Shown here piece by piece: positions 31,432 to 48,645 of a stretch of DNA of 64,000 nucleotides (positions are counted from its first letter, which is position 1; each line of letters starts with the position of its first letter). A program made the position numbers and the translations under genes. This stretch comes from Halobellus rufus (lineage in GTDB: Archaea > Halobacteriota > Halobacteria > Halobacteriales > Haloferacaceae), in NCBI RefSeq assembly GCF_000739575.1, contig NZ_BBJO01000001.1, positions 1-64,000 on the forward strand, in the 5' to 3' direction. The notes below the pieces were generated by a model, which saw nothing but the letters and a program-made list of their open reading frames with translations, ran no database searches and had not been told where the DNA came from.

Positions 31432-31450
31432 CTGTGGTTCACGTCTCGAA
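31432..31450 (-). promoter_or_regulatory. Shared upstream motif TTCGAN-N6-ACCAGAA (copy 1)
   Basis: Minus strand TTCGAG-ACGTGA-ACCACAG, 34 nt upstream of the start at 31397. The ACCA core is kept; the last three bases differ from the other copies. Confidence 0.6.
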
Positions 31451-31505
31451 TCCCCGTGAGACCTGCTATGGCTTTTTGCGCCCGCAGTCGAACATCTCCA
31501 CAGAT

Positions 31506-32753
31506 ATGCGCCCTCGGACGCTGGCAGTGTTGGGTCTCATTGTCCTCGTTGCCGGGGGACTCGCAATCGCTGCATTCACTGGGAGCCAACAGTTCGACGT
31601 GGAGATGACGACCATGTGGGTGAGTGATACGGGTCGTGATACGGGCGGCAATCACCATGCACCGGCAGCGGGTCGAATCCAGGGGACTGGGATGGTCTAT
31701 GCCCCTATCAGTGGTCGTGCGAATACGCGGAACTGCGCGCTCGTCGCGCTCAACGGAACGACGGGGAACAAACGCTGGTCGTACCCGATTCCGGCGGCCA
31801 ACTGCACGATCCACTCGGTAGCCAGTCCGACGCTCGCCGATTTCGACAGCGACGGCACGAAAGAAGTGATCGCGGCGACGACCGAACAGACCGTCACGGC
31901 GTATCATCCACGTACCGGCGACATCGAGTTCCGACACAACCTGACGTCGTACGGCTATACGAAGCCGATCGTCGCCGATTTCGTCGGCGACAGGACACCC
32001 GAGATCATCGTTGTCGACGTCAAGGGGACGGTATTTGTCCTTGAGCCGAACGGGACAGCCGTCTGGTCGAAGCAGCTCTCTTCGTACACATGGGGGCAAC
32101 CAGCCGTCGCTGATTTCGACGGAGACGGGGAGTCTGAATTGACAGTCGCCACTGGGGGGACTGGTAAGCTCTACGTCTTTGAACAGAACGGCTCATTGGC
32201 GTGGGAACAGCCCCAGTCGTACGAGGGGTCGATCACCTGGATGACGACAGGGAATGCAGACGCTGACGATGCTGTGGAAATCGTGGTCGCAACTGCATCT
32301 ACTGGCCGTGTTTCGATGGTCGACGGCGCCTCGGGGGAGCGAGAATGGAGCCGTGACTTCGGGAGCTATGCCGCCGTCCACGCATTCGGTGACGGCGATG
32401 GTGATGGTGAGCCAGAGATCTATGCGGTCGCAAAGGACGGCAAACTCAGAAGTCTCGATGCTGCGACCGGTGAGACGGAGTGGACGACGACACTTACCAC
32501 GAGCGATGTTCAGATGACGCCGCCTCCGTCGCTGGGAGATGTCAACGGCGATGGTGATCCGGAACTGGTGGCCGTCACGAACGACGGCATCGTTTCGGTC
32601 GTCGACCCCGAATCGGGGGCCATATTGGACACGTACAAGCGCGAGACAGCGATCTACACCCATCCACGCCTGGCAGATATCGATGGAGATGGTGACCTCG
32701 AAGCGTTCGTCATGTATGCCGACGGGCGAGTTGTTGCACTCACGTTCAGCTGA
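31506..32753 (+). CDS. Exported beta-propeller (PQQ-like/FG-GAP) protein
   Basis: 415 residues from ATG 31506. An N-terminal hydrophobic segment (LAVLGLIVLVAGGLAIAAF) anchors or exports it. At least six repeats follow of the form ADFDGDGxxELxVAT / DVNGDGDPELVAVT, giving FG-GAP-like calcium loops within a PQQ-type propeller (WSYPIP, WSKQL, WEQPQ). No PQQ dehydrogenase catalytic residues were seen, so it is probably a binding or scaffold protein on the cell surface. It diverges from membrane paralogue A. Confidence 0.78.
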   Translation: MRPRTLAVLGLIVLVAGGLAIAAFTGSQQFDVEMTTMWVSDTGRDTGGNHHAPAAGRIQGTGMVYAPISGRANTRNCALVALNGTTGNKRWSYPIPAANCTIHSVASPTLADFDSDGTKEVIAATTEQTVTAYHPRTGDIEFRHNLTSYGYTKPIVADFVGDRTPEIIVVDVKGTVFVLEPNGTAVWSKQLSSYTWGQPAVADFDGDGESELTVATGGTGKLYVFEQNGSLAWEQPQSYEGSITWMTTGNADADDAVEIVVATASTGRVSMVDGASGEREWSRDFGSYAAVHAFGDGDGDGEPEIYAVAKDGKLRSLDAATGETEWTTTLTTSDVQMTPPPSLGDVNGDGDPELVAVTNDGIVSVVDPESGAILDTYKRETAIYTHPRLADIDGDGDLEAFVMYADGRVVALTFS

Positions 32754-32802
32754 TGCTGTGTGTCGACGGAGGGTGGGATAGTTCTAGGTGTCCGGTGCGT
32801 GA

Positions 32803-33279
32803 TTACGGGTAATTCGATGGAGGCTCGTGAGAGAGGTTACTCCTGGGTGCTGCTCCGCCTGCAATATACCCCTCCACGGCGAAGAGAGCCATCGACAGGA
32901 GAATAAGCGGCACCATCAGAATGTTTCCAGTGTATAGCCACGAAAGCTGACGTATCCCAATGGGATAGGTAGCGAGGAGGTAGTTGATTCCCCACAGTGC
33001 ACTGTAATCGGCACGCGGAATGACGTAACTCATACCGAGCCAGAGGGTGACCCCGAACAGCAACCCGCCGATGAGTCCGGTCAGGAGTCCATGCACGGCA
33101 CGCGTTTGCCATCCTCCGCTCGTGAACCGGCCAGCAACGAGCCCGCCGACTAGTCCAGTAGTGAGGGTGAAGACGACCCCAACCCACATGATCGCCCCCG
33201 GGAGCGAGACGAAATTAGCCACCAGTATCGCCAGAACCTCGACCAGAACTCCCAGAGCGATCGCATCTCGACGTATCAT
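32803..33279 (-). CDS. Small membrane protein with glycine-rich TMs
   Basis: 158 residues, four TMs (LVEVLAILVANFV, GVVFTLTTGLVGGLVAG, LLTGLIGGLLFGVTLWLG, ILMVPLILLSMALFAVEGYIAGG). It resembles haloarchaeal DUF5518-like membrane proteins by pattern. Function unknown. Convergent with the propeller gene. Confidence 0.6.
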   Translation of the reverse strand: MIRRDAIALGVLVEVLAILVANFVSLPGAIMWVGVVFTLTTGLVGGLVAGRFTSGGWQTRAVHGLLTGLIGGLLFGVTLWLGMSYVIPRADYSALWGINYLLATYPIGIRQLSWLYTGNILMVPLILLSMALFAVEGYIAGGAAPRSNLSHEPPSNYP

Positions 33280-33315
33280 TGTCAGTCAGGTCTTCGTGCA
33301 AGGTGGGTGAGGATG

Positions 33316-33846
33316 TTATATCTCATCACCCATAACCGTCCAGAGTCGTGCCAATCGAGCATCTGGGGACTGTGCGGACTGATCTGAGTTGTAACCCGTT
33401 TCGCGATGGTCACGAGTATTCATGTGGCGTGTCGGTGGTGTTCGAGCGTTGTAGACAGCAGCCAACAGAAACACAGCCATGAGTCCATCAAGCGCGTGTT
33501 CGACGAGGTGGTGCTGGCTGATCGGGATTACTTTCCCGAGAGCGAGGCTTCCAAGCACGGCCTTTGCGACGAGCGTTCCGAGGGCCAGCACGACGAGGAG
33601 GTAGGAATGGGATTGCCGTCGAACGAAGGCGAAGAGTCCGAGACTCACCAGGACGGCTGAGGCAACCCCGCTCAAAACGAGTACCGGGAACAACGCAGTA
33701 TCGATGGGCTGGAGGTTGGCTCCGACGTGGAGAGGGGTGGTGCTACAACTCGCGACACACGAATGGGAGAGCGGGGTGGATATAGGCAACTCCATGCCAG
33801 CACGCGTCTCAGGCCCAGCCAAGTCGACGCCACTTCCATCGATCAT
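33316..33846 (-). CDS. Membrane protein, paralogue of 29565-29903
   Basis: 176 residues. A Cys-containing N-terminal extension precedes three TMs. RRQSHSYLLVVLALGTLV and QHHLVEHALDGLMAVFLLAAVYNAR match the smaller paralogue. The C-terminal ~45 residues are soluble. The ATG overlaps the HiPIP-like stop by 4 nt, so the two proteins are probably made and used together, with the HH...H cluster a possible cofactor site. Confidence 0.65.
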   Translation of the reverse strand: MIDGSGVDLAGPETRAGMELPISTPLSHSCVASCSTTPLHVGANLQPIDTALFPVLVLSGVASAVLVSLGLFAFVRRQSHSYLLVVLALGTLVAKAVLGSLALGKVIPISQHHLVEHALDGLMAVFLLAAVYNARTPPTRHMNTRDHRETGYNSDQSAQSPDARLARLWTVMGDEI

Positions 33847-34208
33847 GCGGATGTCTCCTTATAGGGCGCGTAGATCGCACACCACGCATCCGGTTCGATA
33901 TATCCCTCGACGACACTGCAGGCACCAAGCCCGTCACCGTTCCGATCCGGAATATAGTATCGACAGGTCGCACACGTTTGCTTGCGCTCGCCGACTGCAG
34001 AGGAGTAGTTCGCACCGCCCTTCGAAGTGAGCGTCCCAGGATCACGTTTCGTTCCGCCTTGACTGGTCGCTGTTCGATACGCGGCTGGAACGGACCCCTG
34101 GAGTTCCTTCGGGCCAGCTGCGCCGATACACCCAGCAACACCGACGAGTGACAAACTCCCGACCTGACGGAGTATCGACCGACGTGACGTCCGCCGAGTC
34201 TCACCCAT
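33843..34208 (-). CDS. HiPIP-like iron-sulfur protein, Tat-exported
   Basis: 121 residues from ATG 34208; the TTG at 34235 is less likely. A Tat motif SRRSILRQ and lipobox-like VAGC at the start show export and lipid anchoring. The C-terminal domain has CATC, then CSVV 14 residues on and WCAIYAP 12 further, i.e. C-x2-C-x14-C-x12-C, the high-potential iron-sulfur protein pattern for a [4Fe-4S] cluster. It would carry electrons outside the membrane. It has the shared upstream motif at 34242-34260. Confidence 0.8.
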   Translation of the reverse strand: MGETRRTSRRSILRQVGSLSLVGVAGCIGAAGPKELQGSVPAAYRTATSQGGTKRDPGTLTSKGGANYSSAVGERKQTCATCRYYIPDRNGDGLGACSVVEGYIEPDAWCAIYAPYKETSA

Positions 34209-34241
34209 TATGATAGTAATATGCGTGCCGTCCAAAACGAA

Positions 34242-34260
34242 TTCTGGTCCGATTCTCGAA
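34242..34260 (-). promoter_or_regulatory. Shared upstream motif TTCGAN-N6-ACCAGAA (copy 2)
   Basis: Minus strand TTCGAG-AATCGG-ACCAGAA, 33 nt upstream of the HiPIP start. It is identical in all 19 bases to the plus-strand copy at 35841-35859, on the other side of the IS element. Confidence 0.8.
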
Positions 34261-34339
34261 CCAGGGCTACGTACTCGCTACGGGTATTGCTCCTCTTGGA
34301 ATGATCCGAGACGAAGCTTGCGTTACAACGAGTCAACTG

Positions 34340-35720
34340 CCTCGGGGTCAAGCCCCGAGGCTTGTCAGAGGACTCCCGCTCTAACTGCGTAGTGCAGTAG
34401 GTCGGAATCGACCGTTCGCGTTCAACGTCCCTGACTTCAGAGCCAGTTGACTTGTGGCTCGTCCAGCACCAGACTTGAGCCAGTGCTGGACAAGACGCCA
34501 CCCGATATTCCGGGCGGCATTATAATCACTGTGCAACCGCTTTCCCCACTTCAGACACTCAAACTCATCACCGTCACGGTTGTCTTCGTGCGTGAATCCA
34601 CACTCACCGTGACTACACCGTTGACTCGTGTATGCCGGATTCACGTCATTTACGTCGATGCCGTATTCTTCGGCTTTGTATTCGACGTGACGTTGCAGTT
34701 CCTTGAACGCCCACTGCTGGAACTTCGAGGCGTTCGAGATGCGTTTGCGGATGTGTTTCAGGTTCTCGAACGCAATCGCGGTGCAGTCGTTCTCCACGGC
34801 TTCCCGAACGATTGCTTTGGAGATGCGGTGAAGATAGTCGGCGCTCCACCGAGCGAACCGTGACCCGATGCTGTTGATGGTGAGGTGTGCCGAGCGAGTG
34901 CCTGTCTGTTGTAGGTTGCCGCGCCGACGTTCGTATTCGTCGCGGCGGTGGTTGAGGTAATCTGCATTGCCGATGAACGCTCCCGTACTGGTGACGGCCA
35001 CGTATCCGCCCACGTTCAAGTCCACACCGAGAACCACTCCGTTCTCGGTTTCTTCGTCGCAAGAAGGTTCAACGTCTTTCTTCACGGCGACGTGAAGGTA
35101 GTACGTGCCATCGCGTTTGTGAAGCGTTGCTTCGGCTTTCTCCAACTCGTCCGTCCAGTAGTCCTCGAACGATGTGCCGTCTTCGTTGACTGGCGTGACG
35201 TATTCGGCGGTCACGCGCTTGTCTGTGGTAGCAAGGGATACGTGGTCGTCGTTGTATGTGATGGTGCGACCGTTGTACACGACGACCGAGCCTTTGAACT
35301 CGGGTTGCTGGCACGTTCACCATCGAACTTACGGTCTTTGCAATTCGAGAGTGCGGTAGCCGCGAGGTTCCTCGCGCTTTGAACGAGGCTAGATTGCAGG
35401 GAGAGTTCGTCACGAACGTCGGAATACGTCTCGTTGTGGAGCGTGTTCTTCGTGTCCGTGATGTTGTAGGGGTTGTCATCCCATCCGTGGTCTGCGACGT
35501 GTTGCGCCGCTTGTCGGAACTGCTCAAACGTCTCGTCAAGGACTTCATCGCCCTCGTCGGAAACATCGAGTTTGACTTGAATGTTCCGAACAACCTCCAT
35601 ACTTCATTAGCATAGTCAAATATACTTAAAACTACATATTAGATTCGGGAGTCGGCCTTGCTATCGAACGTGGTTTGTGTATTGGGTTGTCGGCTTCCTC
35701 CCCGAGGTCAAGCCTCGGGG
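34340..35720 (-). mobile_element. IS200/IS605-like tnpB-only element with terminal hairpins
   Basis: The tnpB gene is bounded by hairpins of the same family. CCTCGGGG-TCAAG-CCCCGAGG (34340-34360) lies at its 3' side and CCCCGAGG-TCAAG-CCTCGGGG (35700-35720) at its 5' side, the latter followed by TATCCGCCTTGA. It has inserted between the divergent HiPIP and DyP promoters. No tnpA is present. The exact outer ends were not determined. Confidence 0.75.
34381..35600 (-). pseudogene. tnpB: tnpB (RNA-guided nuclease of IS200/IS605 type), frameshifted
   Basis: The 5' part (MEVVRNIQVKLDVSDEGDEV...) and the main part are in different frames. They join near the GGG at 35302-35304, where ASNP|EFKGSVVVYNG would be continuous. 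RuvC residues are present (GVDLNVGG, FENLKHI, HSDYNAA). In the zinc finger the last Cys is Trp: CSHGEC pairs with ECLKWG instead of CxxC-G. The frameshift plus this change suggest an inactive copy. Confidence 0.8.
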
Positions 35721-35859: not shown

Positions 35860-35892
35860 CCCCTATCCAAGACACATTCAAACCATGTCGTG

Positions 35893-37197
35893 ATGACCGA
35901 TGGAAGAGGCATTCCGCGTCGGGCCTTTCTCAAATCAGCGGTGGCGATCGGAGGCACAGCGGCCTTCAGTGCCTGTCTGGGCCGTGAGGAGGTCGATGTC
36001 CCGACTGGACCATCCGACTTGTCGTCGTATCCTCGCCGACAACACGCCTGGAAAAGCGTCCTTCCAACCGACGACGCCGGAAACACAATCGCCCCCCGGC
36101 ACCGCGTTCTCCTCTTTTTAGACTACCTGAACGACGGTGTTCCCGTAGGCAGCGACCAAGAAGCGATGGAGACTGCACTCCAGGGGATCGAACACGCGTA
36201 TGAGCGGAGCGGCAAGGGACTCGTGCTCACCGTGAGCTACTCTCCAGCGTACTTCGACCGGTTTGACGAAGACCTGCCCGAGAGTGTCGCCCTCCCCGCA
36301 CCGAAAGCGCTTGCTCCCTTCGAGGATCCCGAGCTAGACACACCCGACGCCGTCGTTCACCTTGCAAGCAATACGGCACAGGTCGTACTCGGCGCCGAAG
36401 AATCGCTCAAGGGGAACAAATCGACGCTCAACGGTGTCGAACAACCAGACACTGCCCTAACGGACGTCTTCGAGATCGTCGATCGGCGGACGGGCTTCGT
36501 CGGGGACGGCCTCCCCGCAGAGAATGCAGGCGATGCTGAGGGTGTCCCCGCCGACAAGGTCCCGGAGGACGCACCGCTGTTCATGGGATTCAAATCCGGG
36601 TTCAAAAAGAACCAGGCGAGCGAGGATCGCGTCACGATCCAGTCGGGACCGTTCGCGGGCGGGACGACCCAGCACATCTCCAAGCTCCAGCTCAACCTCA
36701 ATCAGTGGTACAATCAGGACGACCGCTGGCAGCGCGAGGCGAAGATGTTCTGTCCGTACCACGCCGAAAACGATGTTATTGAAGGCACTGGAGACAATCT
36801 CGGAACGAGCAGCAAGATCGACGATTGCAAGCCAGTAGACGAGACGGCCCGCGAGATGGGCGTCGTCGGCCATTCGCAGAAATCCGCAGCCGCCCGGGAG
36901 AACGACACCCCGATCATTCTCCGTCGGGACTTCAATTCGACAGACGGTGGGCAAGCTGGCCTCCATTTCCTCGCACTCCAGCGCGGTATCGGTGACTTCG
37001 AAAAGACACGGAAGGCGATGAACGGGACCGATGTCTCCAAACAGTCAGCCGTCGGCCAGCGCAACAACAACGGCATCCTACAGTACATCCGGACGGAACG
37101 TCGCGGCAACTACCTCGTGCCCCCGCGGTCTTTACGCGCGCTTCCGCCTGCACAACCAGCGACCAACGCACAGGAGGTGACGGATGCGTCGTCGTGA
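35893..37197 (+). CDS. Tat-exported DyP-type peroxidase-like protein
   Basis: 434 residues from ATG 35893. Tat motif PRRAFLKSA and FSAC lipobox-like site. The C-terminal half has GFKSGFKKNQ, FCPYHA, VVGHSQKSA and PIILRRDFNSTDGGQAGLHFLALQ, the order of the DyP/EfeB heme domain, in which the GHS histidine would be the heme ligand. In EfeUOB systems such a protein serves iron uptake. It overlaps the P19-like gene by 14 nt and heads an operon with P19-like and CtaA-like genes. The assignment is remote. Confidence 0.65.
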   Translation: MTDGRGIPRRAFLKSAVAIGGTAAFSACLGREEVDVPTGPSDLSSYPRRQHAWKSVLPTDDAGNTIAPRHRVLLFLDYLNDGVPVGSDQEAMETALQGIEHAYERSGKGLVLTVSYSPAYFDRFDEDLPESVALPAPKALAPFEDPELDTPDAVVHLASNTAQVVLGAEESLKGNKSTLNGVEQPDTALTDVFEIVDRRTGFVGDGLPAENAGDAEGVPADKVPEDAPLFMGFKSGFKKNQASEDRVTIQSGPFAGGTTQHISKLQLNLNQWYNQDDRWQREAKMFCPYHAENDVIEGTGDNLGTSSKIDDCKPVDETAREMGVVGHSQKSAAARENDTPIILRRDFNSTDGGQAGLHFLALQRGIGDFEKTRKAMNGTDVSKQSAVGQRNNNGILQYIRTERRGNYLVPPRSLRALPPAQPATNAQEVTDASS

Positions 37198-38245
37198 CGT
37201 GCTCCGGGTTGCCGGAAGCACCTCGATCGTCGGACTCGCTGGTTGTACCAACTTATTCGAGACACGCTCAGCTTCTGAACCACCCCTCGCCGAGAACCGA
37301 CCGGATGCGGTCTACTTTCCGACCCACGTTGAGGGGATGAAGATGCCCGGGATGAACGAACAGGGTGGGTACAAGTGTGCGCTCACGTACTCGTTTCCGC
37401 ATCGGTTCTGGCTGATGAAGCCGAGTGGAATAACGAAAGTCGACATCCAGTCGGCGGATTCCGTTCATATGATGCCGATTGTCTGGGACGCACAGACGAG
37501 GATTATCCCGCCTGACATCAATCCGCAACTCACGATCACGCAGGATGGCGAGTCGGTCGATCAGTTCGCGCCGTGGCCGATGCTCTCCCAGCCGATGGGC
37601 TTTCACTTCGGCGACAACGCTCAACTCAATGGGAACGGCACGTATACCGTCGACGTTAGCATCGGGGGCCCATCGACACGACGTACGGGGTCGCTGGCCG
37701 AGAATCAGGGGGACGCCTCGTTCACGTTCGAGTTCGAATTCAACCAATCGACACTCGACGAGATCTCGGTTACGGACCTCTCCGAAGACAAACAAGGTAC
37801 GAAGGGTGCAGTCGACGTGATGGACATGGAGATGTTGCCGAGTTCGCAGGTGCCGAAACCGGACGCGCTTCCCGGTGACGTCCGGGGGACGGCAACGAGT
37901 GGAGATGCGAAATTCGTGGTCACGGTGCTCGAGGACGCATCGAGATTTGGCGGCACCCAAGACCAGGTCTATCTCGCAGTCTCGCCACGTACGCCCTATA
38001 ACCGGATTATGCTCCCGATGATGTCGCTCTCGGGCACGCTCACGCGGGGTGGATCCTCAGTCTTCGACGGGATTCTGCAGGCGACGATAGACCCCGAGTT
38101 GCGCTATCACTACGGAGCGACGGTCTCGGACGTCCAGTCGGGGGACGAGTTGACGATTACTGTCGATTCGCCACCACAGACGGCTCGCCACGAGGGATAC
38201 GAGACAGCGTTCGTCGATATGCCCTCGATGACCCTAACACTATAA
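37184..38245 (+). CDS. P19/Tp34-like metal-binding lipoprotein (copy 1)
   Basis: 353 residues. RRRDVLRVAG and lipobox LAGC at residue 20 show lipoprotein export. The N-terminal domain, DAVYFPTHVEGMKMPGM...LTYSFPHRFW, with VHMMPIVWD and QPMGFHFGDN, resembles P19/Tp34 periplasmic proteins that bind Cu and Fe through Met and His for FTR1-type iron uptake. A second beta domain (VAVSPRTPYNRIMLP) forms the C-terminus. Translationally coupled to the DyP-like gene. Paralogous to 40964-42031. Confidence 0.68.
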   Translation: MRRRDVLRVAGSTSIVGLAGCTNLFETRSASEPPLAENRPDAVYFPTHVEGMKMPGMNEQGGYKCALTYSFPHRFWLMKPSGITKVDIQSADSVHMMPIVWDAQTRIIPPDINPQLTITQDGESVDQFAPWPMLSQPMGFHFGDNAQLNGNGTYTVDVSIGGPSTRRTGSLAENQGDASFTFEFEFNQSTLDEISVTDLSEDKQGTKGAVDVMDMEMLPSSQVPKPDALPGDVRGTATSGDAKFVVTVLEDASRFGGTQDQVYLAVSPRTPYNRIMLPMMSLSGTLTRGGSSVFDGILQATIDPELRYHYGATVSDVQSGDELTITVDSPPQTARHEGYETAFVDMPSMTLTL

Positions 38246-38260: not shown

Positions 38261-38791
38261 ATGCCTGACACTCAACGCACGGTATCAACGGGTAAGCAGA
38301 TTCTGTCCAAGCAGCCGTCAACTCGTCTTGGATACAGACATTTAGCCGCGGTGACGCTGGTCGGAACATACGTGGTGATGCTTCTCGGTGCGTACACGAG
38401 TGCAATCGGTGCGGGGCTCTCATGTCCGGACTGGCCGACGTGTTACGGAACCTGGGTCCCGTTTCTCCAGCCCGATATCGTTGCCAATTCTCCGTATTCA
38501 GCCCTTCAGATCTTCGCTGAATGGGCGCATCGAGGGCTCGCGATGATCGTCGGCTTTCTGATCCTCGGGACGGCGATTGCCGCATGGCGTACCCACCGTG
38601 ACTCCCCGCTCGTGGTGTGGTCGGCGACGCTCGCTATAGTACTCCTCCCGATACAGGTCCTCCTTGGCGGGCTGACTGTGACCCGAGATCTCCAACCGTT
38701 CATTGTGACGACGCATCTCGGGGTCGCAACCTTGATCCTACTCGGTCTTACGATAACAACGGTCGTGGCGTGGATACGGGCTCAAAACTGA
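38261..38791 (+). CDS. Half-size CtaA/COX15-like membrane protein
   Basis: 176 residues, four TMs. LSCPDWPTCYG after TM1, FAEWAHRG in TM2 and VTTHLG in TM4 match one half of heme A synthase, with His residues as heme ligands and a CPxxPxC cysteine pair. Full enzymes have eight TMs, so it must dimerise or act in a related heme step. It lies 15 nt after the P19-like gene. Confidence 0.78.
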   Translation: MPDTQRTVSTGKQILSKQPSTRLGYRHLAAVTLVGTYVVMLLGAYTSAIGAGLSCPDWPTCYGTWVPFLQPDIVANSPYSALQIFAEWAHRGLAMIVGFLILGTAIAAWRTHRDSPLVVWSATLAIVLLPIQVLLGGLTVTRDLQPFIVTTHLGVATLILLGLTITTVVAWIRAQN

Positions 38792-38908
38792 CTACACTAC
38801 GATGGGCCGCGGAGAGCCCGTTCCCCATACGTTGACTTCGAATCCACGAACCATCGAAATCGCGCAGGCTTTTATAGTGTCCCTCCAATACTCGCCCGAT
38901 TTGAGCTA

Positions 38909-40288
38909 ATGTGGGCGAAAAGGAGGGTTCTGACCATCATCCTTTCAACGCTTGGAGTTGCAAGTCTCGCCCAACCCACGGCTGCCCACGTCGGCGGGCT
39001 CAGCGGGACAACGACGTCTGCATCCGTCCCGACATGGCTGACGATTCTCACCGGTGGTGTGATTGTCGGTGCCTCGTTTATGTTCACGAGTCTGATGACC
39101 GACCATACCGCGATTCGTGCCATCAACGAGTGGCGTATAGTCGTTCCGACGCCCAACGCCGTTCGTACAGCCATTCGCTATGCAGTCCAAGGAACCAGTA
39201 TCGGCGTGTTGCTGGTAATTCTCGTGACCGGGTTCACAGGGCCACAAACACCAACCTCGAACTTCGCGATTCTCGTCGTCTGGGCGGGGTGGTGGGCCGG
39301 GTATACAATGACCGTGTACCTGTTCGGAAACACGTGGCCGCTGTTCAATCCGTGGCGTGCGATCGCGGAGCTCCTCCCCAGCAGTCGACATCGGACGTAT
39401 CCCGAGTGGCTGGGAGCGTGGCCGAGCGTCGCTGCACTCCTTGCCCTCGTCTGGCTCGAGGTCATCAATCCTGTCGCACAAGATTCACAACTGCTCGCGC
39501 TCTTGATTATCGGCTATTCGGTATTCACACTTGGAGGAGCTTGGCTGTACGGAACGGAGACGTGGTTCGGAAACGTCGATCCAATATCGAGAGTGTTCCG
39601 GTGCTACGGACTGTTGGCCCCGTTCCAGCGAACCGAGTCGGGGTTCGAATTCAAATTGCCCAGCGCCGCTCTGGCAGAGCGTCAGGTTTCCGAACGCGTC
39701 GACGAAACCGCGTTCATTATCGCGCTCCTCTGGGTGACCACCTATGATGGATTCGTTTCGACACCACTCTGGACAGACGTTGCACGCCCAATTGTTGGTG
39801 TTGGCATCCCGCCATTACTCCTGTACTCCCTGACGATCATTGCTGGGTTCGGGTTCTTCTACATTTACCGATTCGCAGCTCATCAAGTCCGCCAGACAGG
39901 CCGAACATACGTCACTCCAGAGTTCATCGAGGGATGGTTCGCACCGTCGCTGCTTCCAATCGCGGCCGGTTACCACATTGCTCATTTCCTCGGCTACTTC
40001 CTCACGCTCACACCGGCACTTCTGACGATCCTCAGCCAACCGTTCTCCCCGCCAGTGAACGTTCAGGTCTTGGTACTTCCCGGCTGGTTCCCGATCCTTC
40101 AACTCCTATTCGTTCTCCTCGGCCATCTAGTCGCCGTCTGGGTCGCCCACGCGCTGGCCTTCGAACTGTTCCCCGGTAAACTCAAACCCATCCGGAGCCA
40201 GTATCCGTTCATCATCGTAATGATTTTCTACACGATGACGAGCATGTGGGTTGTCACCCAACCGTTCACCCCCCCACCATACGTATGA
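38909..40288 (+). CDS. Polytopic membrane protein (paralogue B of three)
   Basis: 459 residues, about 11-12 TMs. Features are FGNTWPLFNPWRAI, YPEWLGAWPSVAALLALVWLEV, NVDPISRVFRCYGLLAP, GYHIAHFLGYF and MTSMWVVTQP. The YHxAH pair in a membrane segment may hold metal or heme. TTTATAG at 38870-38876 is a plausible TATA box 33 nt before the start. It overlaps the zinc-finger/TM gene by 4 nt. Function unknown. Confidence 0.72.
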   Translation: MWAKRRVLTIILSTLGVASLAQPTAAHVGGLSGTTTSASVPTWLTILTGGVIVGASFMFTSLMTDHTAIRAINEWRIVVPTPNAVRTAIRYAVQGTSIGVLLVILVTGFTGPQTPTSNFAILVVWAGWWAGYTMTVYLFGNTWPLFNPWRAIAELLPSSRHRTYPEWLGAWPSVAALLALVWLEVINPVAQDSQLLALLIIGYSVFTLGGAWLYGTETWFGNVDPISRVFRCYGLLAPFQRTESGFEFKLPSAALAERQVSERVDETAFIIALLWVTTYDGFVSTPLWTDVARPIVGVGIPPLLLYSLTIIAGFGFFYIYRFAAHQVRQTGRTYVTPEFIEGWFAPSLLPIAAGYHIAHFLGYFLTLTPALLTILSQPFSPPVNVQVLVLPGWFPILQLLFVLLGHLVAVWVAHALAFELFPGKLKPIRSQYPFIIVMIFYTMTSMWVVTQPFTPPPYV

Positions 40289-40963: not shown

Positions 40964-42031
40964 ATGAAGCGACGCGCCCTCATTACGCGAGGGGCAGGAC
41001 TTGCTGGTGGGGTTGCTCTCACTGGGTGTCTGAGTCGTCTCGGCTTCGAGACGCAATCCGCATGGCGGGACCCCCCTCTCGTTCAGGACCGTCCTGATGC
41101 AGTCTATTATCCGGCAATCGTCGAAGGGATGGGAATGTACGGGGTGACGAAAGCTGGCGACGTCGGATTTGCACTGATGCACTCGTTCCCGCATCGGTTC
41201 TGGAACTTAACGGGGACGAACAAGACGAAGGTCGTCGTTCGATCCAGCGATTCTCTCCATCTCATGGCGAGTGTCTGGGACGTGAAGACGAACACCATCC
41301 TGCCGGTTGATATCTCCGCGGAGATCAGCAACGCCGACGGGCAGGTGACCAGCACCAATTTGTGGCCGATGATCTCGCCGAACATGGGATTTCACTACGG
41401 AGACAACGTCGGGCTGCCCGGTGAGGGACAATACGATGTCACCCTCCGTGTCGGACCGCTTCAGACCAATCGCACAGAGCCACTCGAAGGCCGGTTCACG
41501 GAGGCACAATCGGCGACGATGAGCTTCACCTTCGATACGAGTGAAACGTACAATCTCGAGTACCGACGGTTAGGAGAGAAAGCGGGGACCCGAGGAACCG
41601 TCGACCTGATGGAGATGGAGATGATGCCTGAACCCCTGGCCCCGTCGAAAGACGACCTTCCCGGTCGGCTGATCGGTGACGGCTCCTCTGGTGATGCAAC
41701 TTTCTTCATCACCGTTGTTGAGGGAGAAACCCGCTTTAGTGAGGATGATCGCCCGTACATGATCGTCTCGCCGAGAACACCGTACAATCGTGTCGTTCTC
41801 CCACGGATGACGCTCTCAGTGACCGTAAGACGCGGAGAGAAAACGGTTTTCGAAGGACCGCTTCGGGCTTCGCTCGATCCGGAGATCAGCTGTTATTACG
41901 GGACGTCCATCCCCGAGATCGAGTCCGGCGATAGAGTTACCATCACTGTCCAGACGCCACCCCAGCTCGCACGACACGACGGATACGAGACTGCCTTTAT
42001 CGATATGCCACCGATCGAGTTCACTGTGTGA
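40964..42031 (+). CDS. P19/Tp34-like metal-binding lipoprotein (copy 2)
   Basis: 355 residues from ATG 40964. KRRALITRG and lipobox LTGC at residue 21. DAVYYPAIVEGMGMYG, LMHSFPHRFWNL, LHLMASVWD, SPNMGFHYGDN and the C-terminal IVSPRTPYNRVVLP closely follow copy 1. It is monocistronic, convergent with paralogue C. Met and His residues in the N-terminal domain are the likely metal ligands. Confidence 0.68.
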   Translation: MKRRALITRGAGLAGGVALTGCLSRLGFETQSAWRDPPLVQDRPDAVYYPAIVEGMGMYGVTKAGDVGFALMHSFPHRFWNLTGTNKTKVVVRSSDSLHLMASVWDVKTNTILPVDISAEISNADGQVTSTNLWPMISPNMGFHYGDNVGLPGEGQYDVTLRVGPLQTNRTEPLEGRFTEAQSATMSFTFDTSETYNLEYRRLGEKAGTRGTVDLMEMEMMPEPLAPSKDDLPGRLIGDGSSGDATFFITVVEGETRFSEDDRPYMIVSPRTPYNRVVLPRMTLSVTVRRGEKTVFEGPLRASLDPEISCYYGTSIPEIESGDRVTITVQTPPQLARHDGYETAFIDMPPIEFTV

Positions 42032-42115: not shown

Positions 42116-43627
42116 TCAGGACAGGTATGGTGGGATCGCGCCGGGGAGGGAGATGATCCAGAGGCTGATTACCGTATATCCGATCATCACCGCGATGAAC
42201 GGATACTGACTCCGAATCGCGACGAGTCGGCTGGAGAAGAGATCATACGCGACCGCGTGCGCCGCCCAGATTGCGAGGAGATGCCCGATGAGTACTGACG
42301 CGATACCTAACCCCTCAAACCATGACGGTGGAGACAGAACCAGGGGGTTCGCTGGTGGGGACAGTGGTGAGGTGAGGGCCATCGTCAGTGCCGGGCTGAG
42401 GGAAACAAACAGCCCGGCGTAGTGAGCGAAGTGATATCCTGCTGCAATTGCCAGGAGTGGTGGAGCAAACTGAAACGCGATCGTCCGAGCGGTGATATAG
42501 GTGCCAGTCCCGCGTCGTGAGAGGCGGCCCGCATACCAGTATGCTCCTAGGAAGACGGCATACCCGCAGACGAACAGTATCGTGTACACGAGGACTGCGC
42601 GAACCTCCACGTTCGCGACCATGGCGGGGATAAAGCTGACGAGCGTCTCGACGGTCGTTACACCGGCACTCGTGGTGATGAAGCCGCTGTACGTTAGTTC
42701 CCAGATCAGCGCGATAATGAACGCGACGTCAGAGACATCGGTAACCACGTCCGAACTCCGAAGGTCACTTCCCGGTAGCTTCACCTGGATCTCGTCGTTC
42801 TCTCGTTGGAGGGGTGCAACAGCACCGTACAGCCGGAAGAGGACAGAGAGCGGATCTGCGTTATCAAACCACGATTCTGGGCCGAACAGGAGAGCGCCGG
42901 TAATCGTTATCGTCGAATAGATCAGGATTACCATCACGAGGACAGTCGGAACAGTACTGATGGGGAAAATAACCTCGACCCAGACGAGCACCAATAGCCC
43001 TCCAACGGCTGGCCAGCGTTGCAACGAATCTGGATACTCGCGGTAGCCGGAGGGAAGAATGGCAGCGATGGTCCGCCATGGATTGAGTACTGGCCAGACG
43101 TTCCCAACAAAATAGGTCACGATCGGGAGGCCGGCGCGAACCCCGGCGAACGTGAGCAAGATTGTGAGGCTCGCCGTTGGGAGCTGGGGTCCAGCAAACC
43201 CGAGAAATACCGACAGCACGAGAGCAGCGACTCCAAGACCGTGGCCGATCCAAACAAGAGGATCCCACCACCGTTCAATCGACGGAAGTGTCCGCGACCA
43301 GCTGTGTAGATAGCGGATGAACGCGCGATCGGTAACGAAACTCGCGAGGAGTGCGGATGCCCCAATTGTGGCACCTCCCGTCGCAAGATAGAGCCACTGC
43401 GGGACTGCCAGTGTGTCTCGTGATTGCTTCGAGAGCGTAAGTCCGTTCCCTGCCGCGACGGTATCCACGACGAACATCAACAGCGCGACCCACATGAGAA
43501 ACTGCACGCCGACTCTGAATCGAGGTACCGATAGAACAGTTCTCAGTATGGTCGATAGAGACCATCCCTTCGACTCCTTCTTAGCACAGCCAGTTACGTC
43601 CATATCTGGATCACGCGAAGATGGCAT
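42116..43627 (-). CDS. Polytopic membrane protein (paralogue C of three)
   Basis: 503 residues, about 12-13 TMs. VGNVWPVLNPWRTIAAIL, YPDSLQRWPAVGGLLVLVWVEV, NADPLSVLFRLYGAVAPLQ, GYHFAHYAGLF and VISLWIISLP give the family pattern. It overlaps the preceding zinc-finger/TM gene by 17 nt. A shorter start MDVTGC is possible 24 nt in. Function unknown. Confidence 0.72.
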   Translation of the reverse strand: MPSSRDPDMDVTGCAKKESKGWSLSTILRTVLSVPRFRVGVQFLMWVALLMFVVDTVAAGNGLTLSKQSRDTLAVPQWLYLATGGATIGASALLASFVTDRAFIRYLHSWSRTLPSIERWWDPLVWIGHGLGVAALVLSVFLGFAGPQLPTASLTILLTFAGVRAGLPIVTYFVGNVWPVLNPWRTIAAILPSGYREYPDSLQRWPAVGGLLVLVWVEVIFPISTVPTVLVMVILIYSTITITGALLFGPESWFDNADPLSVLFRLYGAVAPLQRENDEIQVKLPGSDLRSSDVVTDVSDVAFIIALIWELTYSGFITTSAGVTTVETLVSFIPAMVANVEVRAVLVYTILFVCGYAVFLGAYWYAGRLSRRGTGTYITARTIAFQFAPPLLAIAAGYHFAHYAGLFVSLSPALTMALTSPLSPPANPLVLSPPSWFEGLGIASVLIGHLLAIWAAHAVAYDLFSSRLVAIRSQYPFIAVMIGYTVISLWIISLPGAIPPYLS

Positions 43628-43877
43628 AGAGGATTAATAATCCGAAGTATAACAGAACCAATACTGCGAGTGCTTTCAAGCGGAGCGTTCGGAGGTCCGC
43701 CTCCTCTTCGGTTACTGCGGACTCAAACGCCTCTTGCTCTGAATCGTCAAGCTGGCTAGGATGTTCTATCCCCTTGTGGAGCACGAGACGCTCGCTGGTT
43801 GGAAACGGATGCCCGCAATGCTCACAAGTGCCAGCGGGTGTTTCTTCCATCGGTATCGTAGTCCGTATTTGCGACAT
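43611..43877 (-). CDS. C2H2 zinc finger plus TM protein (copy 2)
   Basis: 88 residues from ATG 43877; ATG 43850 (MEETPAGTC) is an alternative. CEHC, 12 residues, H, 4 residues, H, then a TM (LAVLVLLYFGLLILYAIF). Paralogue of 40285-40566, here placed before rather than after its polytopic partner. The shared upstream motif lies 49 nt upstream. Confidence 0.72.
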   Translation of the reverse strand: MSQIRTTIPMEETPAGTCEHCGHPFPTSERLVLHKGIEHPSQLDDSEQEAFESAVTEEEADLRTLRLKALAVLVLLYFGLLILYAIFA

Positions 43878-43926
43878 CACGATCTATCGCTGTTACGAAG
43901 AACTAACGAACTCGGCTATGAAACCG

Positions 43927-43945
43927 TTCTGGTTCGCCGTTCGAA
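43927..43945 (-). promoter_or_regulatory. Shared upstream motif TTCGAN-N6-ACCAGAA (copy 5)
   Basis: Minus strand TTCGAA-CGGCGA-ACCAGAA, 49 nt upstream of ATG 43877. The spacing is longer than in the other copies, which suggests a short 5' leader. Confidence 0.65.
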
Positions 43946-44784: not shown

Positions 44785-45189
44785 ATGAGTGACGAGTCCG
44801 ACACCAATTCAACCTACACGGGGGCAAGCCCGTGGCCGCTGTTCGTTGCACTCGGCTTAGCACTCTCTGAGGTTGGCGTCGTCCTCGGGCTGCGTCCAGT
44901 ATCTGTCGCGGGCCTACTACTGTTCGTCGGATCGGTTGCCGGCATTCTGACGGAAGCAGGGTACGTCTCCCGACCTGCACGGGCAGCTGGTGTGCAAGGA
45001 GTCGCATTAGTCGGTATTGGGATTACGTTGGTCCTTCAGAATCAAACCGGGACTACGGTTCGTGGACAGTCGATCGCCATTGCAGGCCTCCTCAGCCTCC
45101 TCAGCGCACTCCTCTGGGTGGGGTTCATCCGGACACGTACTCGAGATTCGATGGCGACAACCGAGTCGACAGACACGACATCCGATTAA
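44785..45189 (+). CDS. Cox-cluster-type membrane protein
   Basis: 134 residues, four TMs (PLFVALGLALSEVGVVLGL, VAGLLLFVGSVAGILTEAGYV, GVQGVALVGIGITLVLQN, SIAIAGLLSLLSALLWVGFI) and an acidic tail. It resembles small proteins in haloarchaeal cytochrome oxidase loci. First of three tightly spaced genes (18-nt gap, then 4-nt overlap). Confidence 0.65.
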   Translation: MSDESDTNSTYTGASPWPLFVALGLALSEVGVVLGLRPVSVAGLLLFVGSVAGILTEAGYVSRPARAAGVQGVALVGIGITLVLQNQTGTTVRGQSIAIAGLLSLLSALLWVGFIRTRTRDSMATTESTDTTSD

Positions 45190-45207
45190 CTCCACTACCT
45201 GATACAA

Positions 45208-45399
45208 ATGGAATTTAACACGACAACGACCGCGATCGTGTTCATCATCCTGCTCGCCGTTCTTGTCGGCGGCACGGCGATGAGTCCGATGAGTACAAGT
45301 ACCGTTGCGATGGTGAGTGTCGGCCTACTCATCTTCGGGGTCCTGTCGCTCGCCCTCGGCGTCAAACACGGCGAATACCGGGCAAGCCACCACCGATGA
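45208..45399 (+). CDS. Small two-TM cox-cluster-type protein
   Basis: 63 residues: VFIILLAVLVGGTAMS and MVSVGLLIFGVLSLALGVKHGEYR. It matches the size and layout of the CbaD-like or related small proteins of ba3-type oxidase clusters. The 4-nt overlap with the next gene suggests coupling. Confidence 0.6.
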   Translation: MEFNTTTTAIVFIILLAVLVGGTAMSPMSTSTVAMVSVGLLIFGVLSLALGVKHGEYRASHHR

Positions 45400-45665
45400 G
45401 ACTTCCCAAGAAAGCACAGTTCGGGCTCACAGTTGTCGCAGCGATCCTCATTCCAGGGCTCGCCGATTACGCCTTGGCTTCAGCAGGCTACAAGACGCTT
45501 GCTGGGCTCGTCTGGACTGGAGGGTATGGCTTCGGTGTTGTCGCCATCTGGTACCTCTGGATTCGTCCGCTCGACCTCACCGGTCCCACGGGGATTCAGC
45601 TCACCGAGGACGAGGACGCAGATCAGGACAGCAATCCACCAGAGGGGAACGCTCCTTCGTCGTAA
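45396..45665 (+). CDS. CbaC-like cox-cluster protein
   Basis: 89 residues, two TMs (FGLTVVAAILIPGLADYALA, WTGGYGFGVVAIWYLWIRPLDLTGP) and an acidic tail. The pattern recalls CbaC of haloarchaeal ba3 oxidase. No oxidase catalytic subunit is in the window. Confidence 0.6.
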   Translation: MRLPKKAQFGLTVVAAILIPGLADYALASAGYKTLAGLVWTGGYGFGVVAIWYLWIRPLDLTGPTGIQLTEDEDADQDSNPPEGNAPSS

Positions 45666-45838
45666 CCCATGTGAATAGGTGACCCAGTACCGACTGGACC
45701 CCAAGACCCCATACTGGGATCTTGCCGCAGCCAAGCCGGGAATTAATAATACAGGACGAAAAATTTGTTAAAGATACTTATCCAGACGCGGTTTTATAGC
45801 AGCCAGTTTAATAATATTCCAGTACCTAGCTGCCAGTA

Positions 45839-48475
45839 ATGACATCGTCCGACCGGGATTCACACGATTCAGGGGATGAATCCCACGACCACGGACACGA
45901 CCATGATCATGACCACGAACACGACCACCACAACAATGGACAGGAAGCCGACCGCGTAACCGCGACCTCGTCGAATCAGGACGACGTCGCCCAGTTCTCG
46001 GTGCCCGAGATGGATTGCCCGTCCTGTGCGGGAAAGGTCGAAAATAGCGTCCGAAAACTCGACGGCATCAATACTGTTGACCCACAGGTGACGACCGGGA
46101 CACTCTCTGTCTCATACGAGGGGAGTCGAACGTCGCCAGATGAGATTGGCGAGCGCATCGAAAAAGCTGGCTACACGGTCGAAAACCAGGGCGAGACGAC
46201 CGCGACGTTCACAGTCCCTGAAATGGACTGTCCTTCCTGTGCGGGGAAAATCGAGAACGCCCTCGATGGTCTCTCGGGCCTCTCGAGCTACGACACCCAA
46301 CCAACTACTGGAAAGGTGACCGTCACGTACGACGCAACGTCGCTCTCGCCACCAGACATCGTCGATGCCATCGAGGGCGCTGGCTACGAGGTGACCAATT
46401 CGACGGCAACTGACGCAGATACCGAGGACAGTCCCACCGACGAACGTGAGAGCGTCTGGACCAGTTCGCGGGCGATCAAAACGTGGATCAGCGGTGGGTT
46501 CGTCGCACTCGGCCTCCTCTTCGAGTTCTTCCTCACCGGCCAGAATATCCTCGTGGCCGAGATCGTCGGCCGCGAATTACTTGTCGCCGACCTCCTCTTC
46601 CTGATTGCCGTTGGGGTCGCTGGCCAGGTCATCTTCCGCAACGGCTACTACTCTGCGCTAAACCGTAACCTCGACATCGACCTGTTGATGAGCATCGCCA
46701 TCAGCGGTGCCATCATCGCCAGTCTCGTCTTCGGCGAGTCACTCTACTTCGAGGCCGCCACGCTCGCGTTCCTGTTTAGTATTGCTGAACTCCTCGAACG
46801 CTATTCGATGGACCGCGCACGCAACTCCCTTAGAGAGTTGATGGATCTATCGCCGGACGAGGCGACAGTGAAACGGAACGGTGAAGAGGTGACGGTTCCC
46901 GTCGACGACGTGGCTATCGGCGATATCGTTGTCGTGCGCCCTGGTGAGAAGATCCCGATGGACGGCGAGGTTCTCGACGGGGAGAGTGCGGTCAACCAGG
47001 CCCCCATCACGGGCGAGAGCGTTCCCGTGGACAAGACGCCGGGCGACGAGGTGTACGCCGGCACAATCAACGAACAGGGATATCTCGAGGTGGAGGTCAC
47101 CTCGGAGGCAAGCGACAATACGCTCTCGCGCATCGTCCAGTTGGTCGAAGACGCCCAGGCTAACAAAACCGAGCGCGAGCAGTTCGTCGAGCGCTTCTCG
47201 TCGTACTACACCCCGGTCGTCGTCGGCTTCGCAATCCTCGTCGCGGTTATCCCGCCCCTCGTGTGGGGTGCGTCGTGGACGACGTTCATCGTCTACGGCC
47301 TCACGTTGCTCGTACTCGCATGTCCGTGCGCGTTCGTCATCTCGACACCCGTCTCAGTCGTCTCGGGCATCACCAGCGCCGCGAAGAACGGCGTCCTCAT
47401 CAAGGGCGGCAACCATCTCGAAGCGATGGGTGCCGTCGAAGCCATCGCGATGGATAAGACCGGCACGATCACCAAGGGCGAACTCACCGTCACCGACGTC
47501 GTTCCGTTGAACGGCAACAGCGAGGAAGACGTCCTCCAGTGTGCCCGTGGCCTCGAATCGCGGTCGGAACACCCCATCGGCGAGGCGATCGTCGGATTTG
47601 CTGAGGAGAGCGACGTCAGGGCGCCGATAGTTGACGACTTCGAGAGCATTACCGGGAAGGGCGTTGAGGCCGATCTCGACGGAAAGAAACACTACGCGGG
47701 TAAGCCCGGGCTCTTCGAGGAACTGGGCTTTGACCTTGATCACGTCCACGCGACGACCGACGGCGGCGTCGTCACGACGAAGAGTCAACAGCTGTGCGAG
47801 CGCAACGACTGCATTGATCTCTTGGAGGAGACGGTCCCCGAACTCCAGTCCCAGGGGAAGACCGTCGTTCTCGTCGGGACCGAGGACGAGATTGAGGGCG
47901 TCATCGCCGTGGCTGACGAGATTCGGCCCGCAGCGACGCAGGCGATCCAGCAGCTCCACGACTTGGGCGTTGAGCACATCATCATGCTCACGGGTGACAA
48001 CGAACGGACTGCCCGAGCAATCGCCGACGAGGTCGGCGTCGACGAGTTCCGCGCGGAACTCCTGCCCGATGAGAAGGTCGAGGCGATCAAGGAACTCGAC
48101 GAACAATATGACGGGGTCGCGATGATCGGCGACGGGGTTAATGATGCACCCGCGCTCGCGACGGCGACCGTGGGCGTCGCGATGGGCGCAGCTGGCACGG
48201 ATACCGCCCTCGAAACGGCAGACATCGCGCTCATGAGCGACGACCTCTCGAAGCTGCCGTACCTCTACGAACTCTCTCACGACGCAAACAGCGTGATTCG
48301 GCAGAACATCTGGACGAGTCTCGGCGCCAAGGGTCTACTTGCACTGGGCGTTCCCTTTGGCCTCGTTCCAATTTGGGCAGCTGTCCTCATCGGTGACGCC
48401 GGGATGACAGTCGGCGTCACTGGAAATGCAATGCGCCTCTCCAGGATCAAGCCGGAGTCGTTACTGACCGAGTAA
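45839..48475 (+). CDS. Zn/Cd-type heavy-metal translocating P-type ATPase
   Basis: 878 residues. A His/Asp-rich N-tail (DHGHDHDHDHEHDHH) precedes two HMA domains with MDCPSCAGK near 58 and 128. Then come eight TMs, the CPCAFVISTPVSVVSG membrane site near 495 as in ZntA/CadA, DKTGTITKG near 538, MLTGDNERTARA, and GDGVNDAPALATA. It exports Zn(II), Cd(II) or Pb(II) using ATP. It stands alone with a TATA-like GTTTTATAGC near 45790. The decayed copy at 21863 is related. Confidence 0.93.
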   Translation: MTSSDRDSHDSGDESHDHGHDHDHDHEHDHHNNGQEADRVTATSSNQDDVAQFSVPEMDCPSCAGKVENSVRKLDGINTVDPQVTTGTLSVSYEGSRTSPDEIGERIEKAGYTVENQGETTATFTVPEMDCPSCAGKIENALDGLSGLSSYDTQPTTGKVTVTYDATSLSPPDIVDAIEGAGYEVTNSTATDADTEDSPTDERESVWTSSRAIKTWISGGFVALGLLFEFFLTGQNILVAEIVGRELLVADLLFLIAVGVAGQVIFRNGYYSALNRNLDIDLLMSIAISGAIIASLVFGESLYFEAATLAFLFSIAELLERYSMDRARNSLRELMDLSPDEATVKRNGEEVTVPVDDVAIGDIVVVRPGEKIPMDGEVLDGESAVNQAPITGESVPVDKTPGDEVYAGTINEQGYLEVEVTSEASDNTLSRIVQLVEDAQANKTEREQFVERFSSYYTPVVVGFAILVAVIPPLVWGASWTTFIVYGLTLLVLACPCAFVISTPVSVVSGITSAAKNGVLIKGGNHLEAMGAVEAIAMDKTGTITKGELTVTDVVPLNGNSEEDVLQCARGLESRSEHPIGEAIVGFAEESDVRAPIVDDFESITGKGVEADLDGKKHYAGKPGLFEELGFDLDHVHATTDGGVVTTKSQQLCERNDCIDLLEETVPELQSQGKTVVLVGTEDEIEGVIAVADEIRPAATQAIQQLHDLGVEHIIMLTGDNERTARAIADEVGVDEFRAELLPDEKVEAIKELDEQYDGVAMIGDGVNDAPALATATVGVAMGAAGTDTALETADIALMSDDLSKLPYLYELSHDANSVIRQNIWTSLGAKGLLALGVPFGLVPIWAAVLIGDAGMTVGVTGNAMRLSRIKPESLLTE

Positions 48476-48572
48476 TCCCACTAATGGCTGGGTTTAGGCA
48501 TAGTACACCTACTGACTTCCCGTCAAGTAGCCATGCGGCAGTCCAGTCGAGGTATTGCAAGGTAGTGAATCG

Positions 48573-48605
48573 TCTCGGGGTCAAGCCCCGGGACATCCGC
48601 CTTGA
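48573..48605. mobile_element. Solo IS200/IS605-type end (hairpin plus CATCCGCCTTGA)
   Basis: TCTCGGGG-TCAAG-CCCCGGGA followed by CATCCGCCTTGA matches the 5' end of the tnpB element at 34340-35720. No tnpB is nearby, so this is an orphan end or a PATE-like non-autonomous remnant. Confidence 0.6.
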
Positions 48606-48626
48606 TCCAGGTGTAAACCATCGTTA

Positions 48627-48645
48627 TTCGATAACCGTACCAGAA
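48627..48645 (+). promoter_or_regulatory. Shared upstream motif TTCGAN-N6-ACCAGAA (copy 6)
   Basis: TTCGAT-AACCGT-ACCAGAA, 32 nt before the halocyanin start at 48678. Confidence 0.75.

Follow-up and report, generated by a model that had tools for sequence, protein, structure and literature searches.

In the haloarchaeon Halobellus rufus, a 19-bp element of the form TTCGA-N7-ACCAGAA recurs upstream of a cluster of genes for exported and membrane proteins on contig NZ_BBJO01000001.1, of which we analyzed positions 1 to 64,000 (the window). The element is real, and it is probably the operator of a tandem winged-helix regulator of the HVO_0163 type (PF24266), which is encoded in the same cluster and would most likely act as an activator. 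What the computations show directly is the element, its position, its conservation and, in two archaeal groups, its linkage to the regulator and their joint occurrence. A pattern search of the window, together with reading of the flanking sequence, returned the six sites of a preliminary description of this DNA at the same coordinates and on the same strands: five exact copies and, as had been stated there, one degenerate copy (31432) with two mismatches (Table 1).

Globally, the element is highly specific to this region. The five exact copies, which lie within a 14-kb stretch, are the only exact matches in the 3.85-Mb genome. Allowing up to one mismatch gave 20 places genome-wide, compared with 5 for the reversed pattern. 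All 15 one-mismatch places outside the window lie within stop-to-stop frames of at least 244 codons, and among the starts listed (frames >50 codons, at most two starts per site) two of the 15 have an ATG or GTG 29–36 nt further on, opening frames of 51 and 95 codons. A position weight matrix (PWM) found 15 places above 9 bits in the window, the top six being the six sites, although the sixth (43927, 16.6 bits) scored barely above an unrelated place at 22972 (16.0 bits). The copies at 34242 and 35841 are identical 19-mers; since their flanks agree at only 12/60 and 21/60 positions, they are not parts of a copied segment. The genome scan proposed in the preliminary description as a check, made for exact and near-exact copies, thus did not refute the regulon claim. 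A shared regulon with one upstream element common to its genes is supported, as are the fixed geometry of the element, its conservation and its near-absence from the rest of the genome. This does not extend to paralogue B, one of three members (A, B and C) of a single membrane-protein family encoded in the window. A weaker form had been proposed before its gene (38837–38853), but the spacer there is 8 nt, the place is absent from the 15 PWM places, and none of 29 fetched paralogue-B relatives (L054–L082, ±1.5 kb) has an exact element; membership of paralogue B is not supported.

The position of the element relative to the start codon is nearly constant. The distance to the ATG is 34 nt for paralogue A, 33 nt for both HiPIP and DyP, 31 nt for the second P19 gene (P19-2) and 32 nt for halocyanin, in agreement with the 31–34 nt reported earlier for five of the six sites. 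For the sixth, the gene of a small zinc-finger/transmembrane (TM) protein, the first ATG is 49 nt away, so this transcript likely has a short leader. A logo of 112 non-redundant promoter-positioned sites reads TTCGA[C/G][G/A][R]N-CG-N-ACCAGAA-CCCN-[C/T][T/A]T[T/C]C, followed by an A (85%) 41 nt from the first T. The spacer, which had been given as free, is not: its positions 5 and 6 are C (82%) and G (76%) in these related promoters. Beyond a gap of four nucleotides, at positions 5–8 after the element and ∼24–28 nt before the start codon, stands a short T-rich box. This is the place of the TATA box in a leaderless archaeal transcript, and the position of AGAA is that of the transcription factor B recognition element (BRE). 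The earlier remark that the bases following the element are not TATA-like was accordingly too strong, although the TATA box is indeed weak. Element, BRE-position end, gap and T-rich box together have the layout of a leaderless promoter. A 26-letter pattern derived from the logo, with up to two mismatches, matched seven places in the H. rufus genome. Six of them are the known sites, the degenerate 31432 copy among them, while the seventh (L267) lacks a suitably spaced start codon; the reversed control of this pattern matched nowhere in the genome. This pattern is not blind to the window, as the logo contains the window sites, and the G of ACCAGAA was left open in it.

The element is also conserved among other haloarchaea. 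Exact matches were present in 113 of the 170 genomes of the family, with 209 matches in total compared with 7 for the reversed pattern (table rows summed by hand). The presence of the element in orthologous promoters, another check that had been suggested and that we ran for exact and near-exact copies, showed it to be kept and left the claim standing. Of 142 distinct sites in relatives' loci, 36 precede P19a-type genes, 29 DyP genes, five the pair of zinc-finger and paralogue-C genes and two halocyanin genes, with one each before a P19b-type gene, CtaA and a weak unrelated match (25% identity). The start codon lies 31–33 nt after the element in 35 of the 36 P19a-type cases, as in all 29 DyP cases. 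The remaining 67 sites were assigned to no window protein; some of them have a start 31–34 nt on (e.g. L151–L153), and part of them are probably chance matches. In a wider count of 231 distinct exact sites, which leaves out loci L001–L022 and L053–L082, 151 had a start 29–36 nt on that opens a frame of 60 codons or more, and clustering assigned 64 of these to P19, 64 to DyP and 23 to others, including halocyanin (3), HiPIP (1) and CtaA (1). Across species, the core regulon consists of P19 and DyP, while halocyanin, HiPIP, CtaA and the zinc-finger/paralogue-C pair are less frequent members. Variants resembling the degenerate copy were found before relatives of paralogue A as well: TTCGAGGGTCGAACCACAA lies 31/34 nt before the gene in L195, and TTCGAGAGGTGAACCATAG ∼33 nt before the match in L183, where the start codon is ambiguous. 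As a separate observation, the pair TTCGATGACCCAACCAGAA and TTCGAAAGACAAACCAGAA, ∼3.8 kb apart, recurs in G016, G085, G088 and G144 (L086, L093 and L094; three genera), and TTCGATGACCCAACCAGAA alone occurs in G018, G061 and G131; in the copies examined, no gene of at least 60 codons starts at promoter distance.

Neither the regulator nor its membrane neighbor, a DUF7471 protein, had been named in the preliminary description, and we have probably identified the former here. Its N-terminal PF24266 domain scores 114 bits (Pfam cut-off 31), and a second winged helix is indicated at the C terminus by HTH_24/HTH_5 matches at residues 76–123. An AlphaFold model (mean pLDDT 89) contains two helix-helix-helix-strand-strand units, corresponding to two winged helices, and helices 31–43 and 105–117 include many of the residues best conserved among 48 orthologues. 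The second domain missed the NCBIfam HTH_metalloreg cut-off (47.4 of 55 bits), and no cysteine, the expected metal ligand of ArsR/SmtB proteins, occurs in the invariant or nearly invariant columns of the 48 orthologues. DUF7471, whose HHxxEHxLD motif is conserved in 75 distinct family sequences, is represented twice in the window, once adjoining the regulator and once in the HiPIP gene run. From the promoter with the 31432 copy, the gene order is paralogue A, DUF7471, regulator, and DUF7471 may possibly be a membrane sensor or partner of the regulator. HVO_0163, an 'ArsR-type' protein and possible one-to-one orthologue of the window regulator, was more abundant after hypochlorite in one proteome, according to the cited part of PMC10294847.

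Linkage between element and regulator was pronounced among haloarchaea. We searched for the regulator with six aligned relatives, of which five came from loci that bear the site, and fetched the best 80 of 91 haloarchaeal loci. The regulator, mostly together with DUF7471, adjoins DyP, P19, HiPIP or paralogue A in many genera, including Halococcus, Halosimplex, Halorientalis, Halomicrobium, Halorussus, Haloarcula, Halogranum and Natronomonas. In 65 non-redundant loci found through the regulator there were 58 exact elements, 55 of them promoter-positioned, spread over 33 loci, whereas 300 letter-shuffled motifs gave means of 0.05 exact and 0.01 positioned copies (maximum 2 and 2) and the reversed motif gave none in these loci. 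When the only locus that had contributed to the query alignment was dropped, the counts changed little, to 57 exact and 54 positioned in 64 loci. Furthermore, of the 207 sites of the family, 73 are no more than 10 kb away from a regulator match among the 150 listed, with ∼1.3 expected. In the 170-genome set, 166 genomes have a match to the regulator protein at E ≤0.001, paralogues included, and positioned regulon sites were present (as an undercount) in 59 of the 143 genomes with a regulator match better than 1e-30 and in 1 of the 27 without. In loci L190–L194, all 31-mers are shared over 20.5 kb among five species of three genera (Haloarcula japonica, Haloarcula amylovorans, Halorussus marinus, Halorussus halobius and Halosegnis rubeus), which suggests a recently spread plasmid or contamination.

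The same association recurs in methanogens. When the promoter-type pattern was searched over 344 genomes of the phylum, 42 matched: haloarchaea, genomes with scattered single matches and one methanogen family (f11) with close variants of the element, several per locus. This family is probably Methanosarcinaceae, because one of its loci holds a relative of the surface-layer (S-layer) protein MA0829. Of 27 window proteins compared with 13 methanogen loci, the regulator alone found relatives, in eight of them; no DUF7471 relative was present in the 13 loci. One of these methanogen proteins (L329:9645-10169) passes the PF24266 model with 64.9 bits and was aligned with the haloarchaeal profile over 161 columns. 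Across 111 genomes of the family, an exact element lies within 5 kb of 22 of the 25 regulator matches better than 1e-60, and within 2 kb for 18. Of these genomes, 22 contain both TTCGA-N4-TGTACCAGAA and the regulator, 4 the element alone, 2 the regulator alone and 83 neither.

In the methanogens, the element is frequently stacked. We inspected 20 promoters in 16 loci whose elements have a T before the spacer G, and 12 of them carry at least one further unit upstream in an exact 19-bp register, while eight have none. The upstream units score 9–11 of 11 unit letters, where the random chance of at least 8 is 0.0015, and two such units stand before three promoters (a single promoter in each of L329, L330 and L331). 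AGAA is missing from the end of every upstream unit, where most have ATA, or AAT and one more letter, instead. On this ground, we assign AGAA to the BRE and core promoter, and TTCGA-N4-[C/T]G-N-AC[C/T]A to the regulator. No such unit in 19-bp register was found upstream of the haloarchaeal promoters. Among the products of genes downstream of the methanogen elements are DUF347 membrane proteins and proteins resembling lipoproteins, two of the latter without a Pfam match. The three-unit elements of L329, L330 and L331 face the 3′ side of the regulator gene, with no frame of at least 60 codons within 220 nt, and a small protein or RNA may be transcribed from them.

These data fit a model in which the two winged helices of the regulator would be placed on the asymmetric site TTCGA-N4-[C/T]G-N-AC[C/T]A, each on one putative half-site, with the trailing AGAA as BRE and the weak TATA box at a fixed distance after it. 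The bound regulator would help TFB and TBP onto the promoter and so activate leaderless transcripts for exported redox and metal proteins, namely DyP, P19, halocyanin, HiPIP and the CtaA operon. Through the 31432 copy, it may also activate the gene run that holds its own gene, and DUF7471 (HHxxEH) would be the best candidate for its sensor or partner. A redox or metal signal is plausible, as the targets point to the redox or metal state of the envelope. The preliminary description had read the element as a possible activator site. Fixed geometry and a weak TATA box are consistent with this, while activation over repression is what we infer. A broader scenario, which we put forward only tentatively, is an ancient membrane-coupled switch: DUF7471 would monitor the envelope for its metal, heme or redox state and in turn control a tandem winged-helix activator on a BRE-fused operator that can be stacked in 19-bp steps. 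The pair of activator and operator would predate the split between haloarchaea and Methanosarcina-type methanogens, later serving DyP, P19 and halocyanin in the haloarchaea, and lipoproteins and DUF347 membrane proteins in the methanogens.

Several observations weigh against the assignment of the element to this regulator. Twelve letters of the logo were fixed by the exact search and are thus constrained by construction; the spacer CG, the T-box and the A were not, and therefore provide independent support. For 32 of the 65 haloarchaeal regulator loci, the flanks that were fetched (up to 10 kb) contain no exact element at promoter position, notably in Haloferax and Natrinema, where the best PWM matches are weak, and ∼10 of the 32 have positioned copies with one or two mismatches. 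The element before DyP in Haloferax sits on contigs other than that of the regulator, and in the single genome G069 elements are positioned before DyP in the absence of a strong match to a PF24266-type regulator. PF24266 proteins have paralogues, and Fisher values for the co-occurrence are inflated because the genomes are related. In the methanogen family as a whole there is no excess of the element (69 exact sites compared with ∼71 for the reversed controls, rows summed by hand); only the 27 regulator-linked sites stand out, and the other 42 therefore look like background. Four methanogen genomes have the element but no strong regulator match. As for autoregulation, the start 32–33 nt after the element in L207, L212, L222 and L231 opens frames of only 25–49 codons before DUF7471, and in L236 another exported protein stands between the exact element and the DUF7471–regulator pair. 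Only in L234 does a one-mismatch copy lie 35 nt before DUF7471 itself. Together with the 31432 copy, this weakly suggests feedback on the regulator's own gene.

The same operator and regulator could also work by repression, with the protein covering the BRE and blocking TFB until a metal or oxidant signal arrives, as bacterial ArsR-type proteins do. The overlap of the element with the presumed BRE position would suit this, as would the resemblance of the second domain to ArsR/SmtB metalloregulators, albeit below the cut-off, and a repressor function is ascribed to MsvR, a winged-helix protein of methanogens whose box contains TTCG, in the cited part of PMC3729527. Nevertheless, weak haloarchaeal TATA boxes would be odd in promoters that need derepression alone, and the extra methanogen units lie upstream of the promoter, neither over nor behind it. 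Sites 5′ of BRE and TATA are moreover the activating position for OxsR (PMC9426492) and GvpE (PMC4390858), as far as these are described in the cited parts. We consider repression unlikely, and favor an activator because the site is upstream of BRE and TATA, the TATA box is weak and extra units stack upstream; the regulator is, by these sequence features, more likely an activator than a repressor.

Two further explanations do without the PF24266 protein. The element might be an extended core promoter, a BRE variant read by a special TFB/TBP pair with no DNA-binding regulator, and its fixed spacing to T-box and start codon and its 3′ end at the BRE position are what one would expect of it. We judge this very improbable: a core element would not be expected to recur once or twice upstream in 19-bp register, as in 12 of the 20 methanogen promoters; the linkage found is to a winged-helix regulator, and conservation reaches ∼15 bp upstream of AGAA. 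It is also improbable, if somewhat less so, that another regulator binds the element and the PF24266 gene is merely a fellow traveller. The DtxR/FeoA-type protein encoded at 25239–25916 would be such a candidate, being part of the same island and kept in the clusters L084, L088, L089, L091 and L099. However, among the 80 named loci this DtxR-type protein is found in five alone (L184, L185, L187, L188 and L189), and no DtxR-type relative was found in the 13 methanogen loci, compared with a PF24266 protein in eight.

Table 1. Elements and genes of the proposed regulon in the H. rufus window
Feature	Coordinates	Strand	Basis or remark
Degenerate element TTCGAGACGTGAACCACAG	31432..31450	-	PWM 20.0 bits; heads paralogue A - DUF7471 - regulator run
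Exact element, before HiPIP - DUF7471b - DUF5518-like	34242..34260	-	PWM 32.1 bits
Exact element, before DyP - P19 - CtaA	35841..35859	+	PWM 33.9 bits
Exact element, before second P19 gene	40914..40932	+	PWM 21.5 bits; same site in L083
Exact element, before zinc-finger/TM + paralogue C	43927..43945	-	PWM 16.6 bits
Exact element, before halocyanin	48627..48645	+	PWM 27.8 bits; same site in L083
Probable cognate regulator, tandem winged-helix protein: PF24266 (HTH_HVO_0163_N) + ArsR-like winged helix	29056..29568	-	Pfam scan, linkage to element
DUF7471 membrane protein	29565..29903	-	Three hydrophobic segments, HHxxEHxLD; often gene preceding regulator
Paralogue A, multi-helix membrane protein, family without name	29988..31397	-	Profile scans, conserved motifs
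DUF7471b, second member of DUF7471 family	33316..33846	-	Pfam scan
HiPIP-like protein	33843..34208	-	Pfam scan; lipobox-type signal judged by eye
DyP-type peroxidase (DUF7405/Dyp_perox_C)	35893..37197	+	Pfam scan
P19-type transport protein (Iron_transport + DUF7350)	37184..38245	+	Pfam scan
CtaA/COX15-like protein	38261..38791	+	Pfam scan
Paralogue B, membrane protein	38909..40288		Same family as paralogues A and C; membership of the regulon not supported
Second P19-type protein	40964..42031	+	Pfam scan
Paralogue C, membrane protein	42116..43627	-	Pfam scan, conserved motifs
Small zinc-finger/TM protein	43611..43877	-	Translation; kept in relatives
Halocyanin (Copper-bind)	48678..49268	+	Pfam scan

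Paralogues A, B and C had no NCBIfam match and no Pfam match (for A, the Pfam scan began after residue 69), and B had no usable match among solved structures; the AAxYxxAH and GH motifs that the family conserves are possible binding sites for heme or metal. The pair of zinc-finger and paralogue-C genes is preceded by an exact element in L084, L087, L089, L091 and L099 too. Between the divergent HiPIP and DyP promoters, at 34381–35600(-), lie two overlapping frames that by eye resemble a fragmented IS605-type OrfB/TnpB transposase, and a TnpB-type gene in which the full set of three Pfam domains is recognized lies at 54637–55866. A multicopper oxidase and a ZIP-like transporter, encoded at 26045–28556(+), share 96–98% protein identity with copies in other genera (L084, L088, L089, L091 and L099), whereas DyP, P19, paralogue C, the zinc-finger protein and the regulator of the same loci are only 65–84% identical; this could reflect either recent transfer or very strong constraint. 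In G069 (L098:7192-11391), SCO1-, thioredoxin- and CcdA-like genes (by eye) as well as DUF7471 and DsbD_2-type genes are found at or between two elements.

Operators are known for few archaeal regulators, and proteins related to this one occur widely. Our analysis provides one PF24266-type regulator with a concrete candidate 19-bp site, together with a promoter geometry and a list of targets, testable in Haloferax volcanii and Methanosarcina, and it connects known electron carriers with membrane proteins of unknown function (paralogues A and C, DUF7471). If the assignment is true, operator letters that are the same in a G+C-rich halophile and an A+T-rich methanogen would make this an unusually old regulator–site pair.

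Among known systems, MsvR of methanogens is similar in being a winged-helix regulator with TTCG in a box upstream of its own gene (PMC3729527, cited part). We rejected its box as the element, since it is an inverted repeat, TTCGTA-N4-TACGAA, in that source, whereas our logo is the asymmetric TTCGA-N4-CG-N-ACCAGAA. The C-terminal domain of the regulator matches the MsvR model weakly (22.5 of 220 bits), and Pfam scans of the window and methanogen proteins returned no V4R match, the regulator having a second winged helix in place of that domain. OxsR of Haloferax volcanii, another small winged-helix regulator, activates with a motif 5′ of BRE and TATA, as described in part of PMC9426492. It differs in belonging to the TrmB family, in having one winged helix only and in sensing through a cysteine, and its motif in that source, CGGnCGnGCG, is absent from our logo. 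The denitrification promoter motif of Haloferax mediterranei is likewise common to a set of redox operons, but the motif given in the cited part of PMC11218638, CGAAYATDKTYG, differs from the logo. A Bat/HTH_10 activator beside the sites was also rejected: none of the 20 HTH_10 matches in the genome is on the window's contig (C81).

Half-sites of GvpE, the activator of haloarchaeal gas vesicle genes, have the form TGAAACGG-n4-TGAACCAA and share part of the 3′ half of our element only. The upstream activating sequence (UAS) bound by GvpE is nevertheless alike in design, being a bipartite 20-nt site beside the BRE whose close spacing is essential and which confers strong activation, as described in the cited part of PMC4390858. 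When compared with its layout of two 8-nt elements and a 4-nt spacer beside the BRE, our element adjoins the BRE position and has halves of other lengths and letters, and GvpE is leucine-zipper-like where the present regulator is a tandem winged-helix protein. EarA, the archaellum activator of methanogens and Pyrococcus, is a winged-helix protein acting upstream of the promoter, and a stronger BRE bypasses the need for it (PMC13286277, cited part); its targets are different, and we liken it to our regulator by its description. By working principle, GvpE/UAS and EarA are thus, by analogy, the closest known counterparts of the system proposed here.

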